A DNA stretch of 64,000 nucleotides from positions 1 to 64,000 of the forward strand of contig CABXIU010000009.1 in assembly GCA_902512305.1 (NCBI GenBank), read 5' to 3'. The notes under the pieces are model-generated. The model worked only from the letters and a program-made list of their open reading frames with translations, had not been told where the DNA came from and did no database searches. The translations under genes were made by a program, and so were the position numbers. The stretch comes from an uncultured Gammaproteobacteria bacterium (lineage in GTDB: Bacteria; Pseudomonadota; Gammaproteobacteria; PS1; Pseudothioglobaceae). How positions within the stretch are numbered: position 1 is the stretch's first letter; every line of letters starts with the position of its first letter. This document shows positions 3,930 through 42,410 of this stretch, one piece after another.

Positions 3930-3965
3930 TTGCAAATGTAAATGAGAATGAGTATCATTATCATT
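3930..3965 (+). promoter_or_regulatory. Sigma70 promoter overlapped by a Fur box
   Basis: A -35 TTGCAA (3930-3935), 17-bp spacer and -10 TATCAT (3953-3958) form a plausible promoter with a start near 3965. Two overlapping 7-1-7 Fur sites sit over the spacer and -10. Site one at 3943-3957 matches TGATAATnATTATCA at 13 of 14 defined positions; site two at 3949-3963 matches at 12 of 14. The 6-bp offset is the classical arrangement for two Fur dimers, and occlusion of the -10 predicts repression by iron-loaded Fur. The promoter reads into the small transcript 3965-4202, not directly into ahpC. Confidence 0.75.
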
Positions 3966-4202
3966 AATTAAAAAAGTTTGGAATGATTAGTAATAAAACC
4001 GACTTCCTCAATCTACTGTTTTTTATTAATTATTTCAACTGCTTCAAAATAGCCCTCCGAACTACGATGAAGCAAAATATCAAAGGAGATTTTAAATAAG
4101 TGATATTTTAATTGCATATAAAAGTTATTTACTTCCTTTAATAGCTCTCAATGTGTAATTAAGCAGCCCTATGTCTTACTCCTTCCATAGGGCATTTTTT
4201 TT
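3965..4202 (+). ncRNA. Candidate Fur-regulated small RNA (or short mRNA)
   Basis: A transcript of about 235 nt is implied by the Fur-boxed promoter and the terminator ending near 4202. The interval has no open frame above 38 codons. The longest, ATG 3983 to stop 4099 (38 aa, Phe/Asn/Lys rich), has GGA abutting the start codon and so no usable ribosome site. The RNA carries several pyrimidine stretches complementary to Shine-Dalgarno sequences (CTTCCTC near 4012, CCCTCC at 4053-4058, ACTTCC near 4132), as expected for an sRNA that blocks ribosome binding. By analogy with RyhB/PrrF, an iron-sparing regulator is plausible. This is inference; no family was identified. Confidence 0.5.
4166..4202 (+). 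terminator. Rho-independent terminator of the small transcript
   Basis: A perfect 8-bp stem, GCCCTATG (4166-4173) with CATAGGGC (4186-4193), encloses a 12-nt loop and is followed by a run of eight T (4195-4202). It separates the Fur-controlled transcript from the peroxiredoxin gene, which therefore needs its own promoter. Confidence 0.88.
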
Positions 4203-4270
4203 AAAAATAAATATAAATCATGAAATATTGGTACAACTACAAAATATATTTATTAAAAAAATCCAATCGT

Positions 4271-4302
4271 TTGACTTTTGTCTCAATGAGACAACACAAA
4301 AT
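4271..4302 (+). promoter_or_regulatory. Dyad-in-spacer promoter upstream of the peroxiredoxin
   Basis: A perfect 17-bp palindrome TTGTCTCA-A-TGAGACAA occupies 4278-4294, centred at 4286. It is flanked by a good -35 TTGACT (4271-4276) and a weak -10 CAAAAT (4297-4302), giving an over-long 20-bp spacer whose midpoint is the palindrome centre. This geometry is typical of MerR-family activated promoters, SoxR included. Transcription would start near 4309, about 100 nt before the peroxiredoxin ATG. No regulator gene is nearby, so the identity of the protein is unknown. Confidence 0.45.
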
Positions 4303-4410
4303 TCCAAAGCAAATGATTGGACAGGTCATCTTGGATGAAGTTAAAAATGACTTTAAACATGAGATGGAACTTTATTACAAAAGTCCAAGAATGTTAAACA
4401 GGAGAATACT

Positions 4411-5010
4411 ATGAGCGTATTGATTACAAAAGAGGCACCTGATTTTAGTTCTTCAGCTGTTCTTGCAGATGGCAGTATTGTAGAGAATTTCCAACTTTCA
4501 CAATTTAAAGGTAAGAAAATAGTACTTTTTTTCTATCCTTTAGACTTTACATTTGTTTGCCCTTCAGAGATTTTAGCGCACCATCATAGAGTTGCTGCTT
4601 TTAATGAAAGAGATGCAATACTAATTGGGGTATCAATAGACTCAACTCATACCCATAATGCTTGGCGTAATACCAAAGTTAATGATGGTGGAATTGGACC
4701 AATTGATTTTCCATTAGTCTCAGATATGAATCACTCAATTATGAATTCATATGGAATTATTCATCCCGAAGGAACAGCACTAAGAGCCTCTTTTTTGATT
4801 GATGAGAACTTTATTGTACGTCATCAGGTGGTTAATGATCATCCATTGGGAAGGAACGTGGATGAAATGATAAGAATGGTTGATGCGCTAGATTTTCATA
4901 CTGAGAATGGAGAGGTATGTCCAGCTGGATGGTATAAAGGTGACGATGGAATGAGTGAAAATGCTGCGAGTGTTGCAGAATATTTATCAAAAAATGCAAG
5001 TAGCCTTTAA
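4411..5010 (+). CDS. Typical 2-Cys peroxiredoxin (AhpC/Prx1 family)
   Basis: Cytoplasmic thiol peroxidase that reduces H2O2, organic peroxides and peroxynitrite. The 199-aa protein has the peroxidatic cysteine C50 in DFTFVCPSE and the resolving C170 in GEVCPAGW. A GGIG motif is present near residue 93 but the C-terminal YF motif of over-oxidation-sensitive eukaryotic Prx is absent, so the enzyme is likely robust to hyperoxidation. An AGGAG site lies 7 nt before ATG 4411. It has an individual promoter with a dyad operator (4271-4302). The reductant could be thioredoxin, since no AhpF is encoded here. It is convergent with the dinG-like gene. Confidence 0.95.
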   Translation: MSVLITKEAPDFSSSAVLADGSIVENFQLSQFKGKKIVLFFYPLDFTFVCPSEILAHHHRVAAFNERDAILIGVSIDSTHTHNAWRNTKVNDGGIGPIDFPLVSDMNHSIMNSYGIIHPEGTALRASFLIDENFIVRHQVVNDHPLGRNVDEMIRMVDALDFHTENGEVCPAGWYKGDDGMSENAASVAEYLSKNASSL

Positions 5011-41903: not shown

Positions 41904-42410
41904 TTATTTTCCTGGCCACATCATACGTATTTCAGTTATTGTGCAGCTATTATCACCTGAAGATGTTAGAATTATCTGGTAAGAATTATCAGATGGCGAA
42001 AGAATTGTGAAATCACCATCACCAAAATCTGAAACTATTAAATTTTGATCACTTTCGACTTTAATTTGAGTTATGTTGATACAGGACTGGTTTTTTATTG
42101 AAGAAACCTGAACAGTTGAAAGATAACAGTATTCTCCATCGGGAATTAGACTAGCAGAAAAAGAAGAGGTACCATTATTATATTTTTGAGAAGAAATATG
42201 GAGAGAGGGGAGTATTGAAGGGCTGTCTGGATGAGCAAATGTTAAATTCAATCCATTGAGTCCATTTGACTCTTCTATTTGAATTAAATAGGCATAGCAA
42301 GTTTCATTTATTCCCCGATTTTTAGCGTCTTCAGCTAAAGATGATGCAAAAGAGTTGACTGATGAAAGTAGAATTATTAATGCAAAAATATTTTTATAAT
42401 ATCCATTCAT
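41904..42410 (-). CDS. Secreted hypothetical protein with four cysteines
   Basis: I do not recognise this 168-aa protein. Residues 1-24 form a clear signal peptide (charged start, LIILL core, SFAS cleavage region), so it is exported. The mature part has four cysteines (C38, C95, C110, C156), an even number suiting two disulfides, and a Ser/Asn/Ile-rich composition suggesting a beta-sandwich. It has no lipobox and no membrane helix after the signal. Neighbours are envelope genes (htpX, a lipoprotein, a DUF2628 protein). Confidence 0.6.
   Translation of the reverse strand: MNGYYKNIFALIILLSSVNSFASSLAEDAKNRGINETCYAYLIQIEESNGLNGLNLTFAHPDSPSILPSLHISSQKYNNGTSSFSASLIPDGEYCYLSTVQVSSIKNQSCINITQIKVESDQNLIVSDFGDGDFTILSPSDNSYQIILTSSGDNSCTITEIRMMWPGK

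Follow-up and report, generated by a model that had tools for sequence, protein, structure and literature searches.

Positions 3930-4203 of the window, the 64,000-nucleotide stretch of DNA from an uncultured gammaproteobacterium analysed here, very likely encode a small RNA under Fur control, as judged from the sequence: a promoter carrying a Fur box is followed ~240 nt further on by an 8-bp terminator, and the unit lies in an intergenic region with no gene inside (Table 1). The window belongs to contig C9 of a 1.48 Mb assembly that is 89.6% complete, and the contig starts 3.9 kb before the RNA. By its peroxiredoxin, the host has its closest relatives among uncultured gammaproteobacteria and SUP05-cluster genomes, followed by Candidatus Thioglobus and related symbionts. 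Sulfur-oxidising SUP05 bacteria abound in low-oxygen seas and use many iron proteins in their metabolism, and a literature search found no paper on a Fur-controlled sRNA in these bacteria. DNA searches located the same unit in 10 of the 29 genomes of the host genus (the SUP05 cluster), the relatives displaying 73-87% identity, and Fur box, promoter spacing, terminator and four C/U-rich motifs are all retained in the alignment of the ten sequences. Promoter and terminator are hence conserved as a pair in these genomes, which an earlier preliminary description of this DNA, made from the sequence alone, had proposed as a check on its reading of the locus as an iron-regulated small RNA.

Table 1 Features of the predicted RNA locus and its downstream neighbours in the window
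Feature	Position	Strand	Basis or remark
Sigma-70-type promoter TTGCAA-17-TATCAT	3930-3958	+	TTGCA and spacing visible in relatives
25-bp Fur box AATGAGAATGAGTATCATTATCATT	3941-3965	+	Predicted; overlies spacer, -10 and start site
Predicted sRNA, ~238 nt	3966-4203	+	Start inferred from promoter; fold z; conserved in 10 genomes
Hairpin H0, loop with CUUCCUC	3978-4038	+	Fold
Hairpin H1, loop CCCUCCGAA	4040-4074	+	Loop invariant at 8/9 positions
Hairpin H2, loop with Shine-Dalgarno-like AAAGGAG	4075-4108	+	Motif invariant at 7/7 positions
Hairpin H3, C/U-rich UUUACUUCCUUUAA in loop region	4109-4161	+	Invariant at 13/14 positions
Intrinsic terminator H4, loop UCUUACUCCUUC, then U run	4166-4202	+	Fold
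ORF64, basic small protein, 59-64 aa, pI ~10	about 4220-4414	+	dN/dS; same 10 genomes
AhpC/TSA peroxiredoxin, usual downstream neighbour	4411-5010	+	

The preliminary description had reported a well-formed promoter, which is borne out, and two overlapping 7-1-7 Fur sites upon it. The pair of sites is present, at 3943 and 3949, and under strict scoring each matches TGATAATNATTATCA at 12/14 positions, so that the score of 13/14 given for one of them does not stand. A lone 12/14 site is not special, with ~1.5 expected per 64 kb of Markov sequence and a third one in the window at 41977, and promoter-like matches are rarer in the window than in shuffles; the significance of the Fur box instead derives from its conservation across genomes. 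When compared with a degenerate Fur pattern, the 25-bp box is exact in nine genomes and deviates by a single mismatch in the tenth; in each genome a match with at most one mismatch always lies at this RNA. Allowing up to three mismatches, the same pattern gives 47 matches in the genus versus 3 for a reversed control. The other Fur-motif sites examined in the genus are mostly found beside an iron ABC-transporter or ferritin-like gene, as judged by eye from the protein sequences, which supports Fur control of the RNA. One ferritin-like gene adjoining a Fur box (L136:993-1451, - strand) encodes a protein that is poorly matched in NCBIfam. The regulator itself is encoded at full length in 27 of the 29 genomes of the genus, and the Fur of genome G003 passes the NCBIfam Fur cut-off. 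In the window's own assembly, at the completeness given above, Fur was not found and only a Zur-like protein was recovered; in seven relatives the fur gene is ~13 kb from the RNA, and the same place here would therefore fall beyond the contig start.

The predicted RNA is markedly structured, with a fold of -52.6 kcal/mol in the window compared to -34.0 +/- 4.0 in shuffles (z -4.64). A comparable multi-hairpin architecture is folded by all ten sequences, and the fold of the alignment reaches -53 versus -28 +/- 4 for column shuffles, with 95.6% of cells paired in the alignment structure. Covariation in relatives, which the preliminary description had suggested looking for, gives a modest signal (5 pairs changed on both sides versus 1.6 in shuffles), since little divergence separates the ten sequences and most stems vary too little to be informative. 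The strong terminator described earlier is confirmed as a perfect 8-bp stem (GCCCTATG/CATAGGGC) closed by a 12-nt loop and followed by a T run, folding at -12.4 kcal/mol, and the CCTCC/CTTCC-type stretches that had been thought able to pair with ribosome sites (CTTCCTC, CCCTCCG, ACTTCCTTT and CTTACTCCTT) are all contained in the RNA. C/U-rich anti-Shine-Dalgarno segments sit in four loop regions, those of H0, H1, H3 and H4, and their conservation is pronounced, as 35/48 of the C-rich loop positions are invariant versus 24/92 of the other unpaired positions (Fisher p 1e-7). The AAAGGAG motif in the loop of H2 could pair intramolecularly with the C/U-rich loops. Taken from sequence and predicted fold, a conserved, structured, non-coding and terminator-ended RNA with exposed anti-Shine-Dalgarno loops is well supported. 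As in the functional class of Fur-repressed iron-sparing sRNAs, a Fur box lies over the promoter, and the predicted transcript is non-coding and ends in an intrinsic terminator, both at the level of sequence.

These features suggest how the locus may work. Under iron-replete conditions, Fur would occupy the promoter and block transcription, and when iron is scarce, an RNA of ~238 nt would be made and end at its own terminator. This RNA would expose its C/U-rich anti-Shine-Dalgarno segments in four loops of five hairpins, and the loops could block translation of selected mRNAs by pairing with their purine-rich ribosome-binding sites. Iron would thereby be spared, as it is by the Gram-positive RNAs IsrR and FsrA, and Hfq would not be required. 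Some read-through of the terminator could yield the small basic protein ORF64, a possible helper of the RNA comparable to FbpA/B/C, which are thought to assist FsrA. Given a Fur-controlled sRNA, pairing of anti-Shine-Dalgarno loops in trans is the best mechanism available and a likely one. The full iron-sparing account, in which we infer transcription, pairing in trans, iron-protein targets and the role of ORF64, appears somewhat more probable than its negation.

Predicted targets were sought in 800 kb of G003 and 400 kb of G004 in addition to the window. In this material, duplex energies of the loops with start regions were on the whole no better than those with coding sequence or those of shuffled loops, and the predicted targets were not enriched in genes bearing Fe-S motifs (p ~0.75), of which just 9 and 5 were recognised. 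The iron-protein genes of the window, including those for IspG, NfuA, Grx4, ThiC and others, show somewhat stronger pairing (p 0.05, falling to 0.01 when the list is loosened) in a post hoc comparison of genes annotated by eye. In several relatives, a divergent gene for a CDF-family cation transporter is found upstream of the RNA (L019:2276-3412, - strand), and the window has no such gene at this position. In G004, the CDF gene next to the RNA has a ribosome site (TTTTTCGGAGGACCATT, at G004:C1:1438522) that includes TTCGGAGG, which matches the H1 loop over 8 bases; this match is not seen in G008.

Other readings of the locus have to be weighed against a trans-acting RNA. Since single 12/14 Fur-like sites and promoter matches are expected by chance, AT-rich motifs might simply have fallen into this arrangement, yet their joint conservation in ten genomes, the structure score (z -4.6) and the loop conservation (p 1e-7) leave this reading a negligible probability. 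The unit might also encode the 38-aa peptide of the open reading frame at 3983-4099, which the preliminary description had named as the alternative to an RNA, with conservation by codon pattern as the observation that would speak for it. Six close genomes keep the frame open, but among these its variable columns are spread evenly over codon positions 1/2/3 (8/7/7), compared to 20/10/39 for ORF64 in the same comparison, and its amino-acid identity is lower than its nucleotide identity. In four further genomes the frame is broken and the start ATG is changed to TTG; the ribosome site is poor, and the ORF has no match among protein families. With codon-pattern conservation absent, substitution uniform and the frame lost in four genomes, the frame was rejected as coding, the RNA reading is left standing, and it would be very surprising if the unit encoded this peptide.

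A more serious rival is that the RNA mainly constitutes a Fur-controlled 5' leader of ORF64, and of the peroxiredoxin gene behind it, and that its terminator serves as an attenuator. In every one of the ten genomes ORF64 begins ~20 nt past the terminator; it shows no obvious promoter and is distributed in exactly the ten genomes that carry the Fur-boxed RNA, while the syntenic locus of G027 is without Fur box, promoter, RNA and most of ORF64, all missing together with only a short remnant left. On the other hand, ORF64 has no visible Shine-Dalgarno sequence, and the loop of the terminator is conserved as an anti-Shine-Dalgarno motif that a plain attenuator would not need. In addition, a second covariance model (R2) identified diverged copies of the RNA in other genomes of the genus, three in G011, two in G024 and one in G026, which are without a Fur box and keep the C/U-rich loops and the strong terminator. 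No ORF64 was found in these paralog-bearing genomes, which favours a stand-alone RNA over a mere leader, and we regard the leader reading as unlikely. A Fur-repressed structured RNA could also act by other means than anti-Shine-Dalgarno pairing, such as binding to a protein or to a different RNA. The stems and the AAAGGAG loop are strongly conserved as well, and iron genes were not singled out by target prediction; against this, conservation among unpaired bases is highest in the C/U-rich complements of ribosome sites, placed in four loops and occurring in variant forms in the diverged paralogs, so that little probability is assigned to this option.

Returning to an RNA that pairs in trans, its affinity to known systems was assessed by family membership and by anatomy. 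Rfam gave no match at gathering score and one chance hit (14.8 bits) at a relaxed threshold; lacking an Rfam family match, the RNA is not a homolog of RyhB or PrrF. Hfq was matched in only 1 of 83 genomes of the family by a search that recovers it in controls, E. coli and B. subtilis among them, and in none of the host genus, where two of the RNA-bearing genomes are single contigs at 99% completeness. The sole match in the family (L168, G057:C421:13120-13305) could reflect transfer or a contaminating contig. Of the features that mark RyhB and PrrF, neither a match to their Rfam covariance models nor Hfq in the host genus was thus found, and the 'RyhB equivalent' of the preliminary description can be kept as a functional analogy, not as family identity. 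RyhB and PrrF are likewise Fur-repressed trans-acting sRNAs of Gammaproteobacteria, but the RNA described here is set apart from them by its length of ~238 nt and its repeated anti-Shine-Dalgarno loops.

By anatomy, the RNA works most like IsrR and FsrA. IsrR of Staphylococcus aureus displays Fur boxes, stem-loops and an intrinsic terminator, is Hfq-independent with proven targets, and belongs to an AT-rich genome in which its three single-stranded C-rich regions are directed at Shine-Dalgarno sites (PMC9410917). Fur control, C-rich loops, the terminator, no need for Hfq and an AT-rich genome are common to both RNAs when compared by anatomy only, whereas IsrR has a Gram-positive host and three C-rich regions, and no shared family was found. 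FsrA of Bacillus subtilis, an RNA of 84 nt, is proposed to pair with ribosome sites via a C-rich region, and the Fur-regulated small basic proteins FbpA, FbpB and FbpC have been suggested to be its RNA chaperones (PMC7430163, PMC8216469). Here, too, a C-rich sRNA is predicted to be controlled by Fur and the Fbp proteins are comparable with ORF64, but FsrA is far shorter than the ~238 nt of this RNA, ORF64 is encoded directly behind the RNA, and the likeness drawn here is one of design. In the parts of the source consulted, SmelA075 and SmelA099 of Rhizobiales are described as carrying an anti-Shine-Dalgarno motif in every hairpin loop, with more variable stems (PMC3927594). They resemble the RNA in loop design, with several hairpins displaying such loops, but their loop motif is CCUCCUCCC, they are alphaproteobacterial, and those parts describe no Fur control (PMC3927594). 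An Hfq-independent, Gram-positive-like design with anti-Shine-Dalgarno loops in Gammaproteobacteria would suggest convergent iron sparing in AT-rich genomes, and the locus makes the control of iron use in the SUP05 group directly testable.

By analogy with FbpA/B/C, ORF64 may be a partner or RNA chaperone of the RNA. It is conserved as a protein, with dN/dS of ~0.04-0.17, and a structure model gave three helices (pLDDT 81.5). No family was found for it in Pfam, NCBIfam or PHROGs, nor any convincing sequence or fold match in the PDB, and weak matches to part of a ~220-aa HTH-cupin protein were taken as chance.

It may tentatively be speculated that this apparently Hfq-less lineage possesses a separate family of anti-Shine-Dalgarno RNAs with several hairpins each, whose promoters are interchangeable, one branch being under Fur and another, that of the paralogs, under other regulators, and that the Fur branch is coupled to ORF64 as its dedicated chaperone. 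Outside the host genus the covariance model found no copies, in a search that covered the ten remaining genera of the family and another 182 genomes from the class, and a G012 match of the former model R1 (E 0.03) was dropped, as it was gone with model R2. Among the paralogs, one type has TTGCAAATTAAAGAAGTCTGTGTTAGAGT-like promoters, and the other has a dyad, ATACCC...GGGTA, beside the -35 element. The type B paralogs (L110, L112, L113 and L114) have a common promoter ending in GTGTTAGAGT, with no Fur box, while the type C paralogs (L109 and L115, reverse strand) have the upstream dyad promoter TTGCAAATACCC[TG]ATAG[CT]AGG[GA]GTAGGATAT, which loosely resembles an IscR type-1 site.
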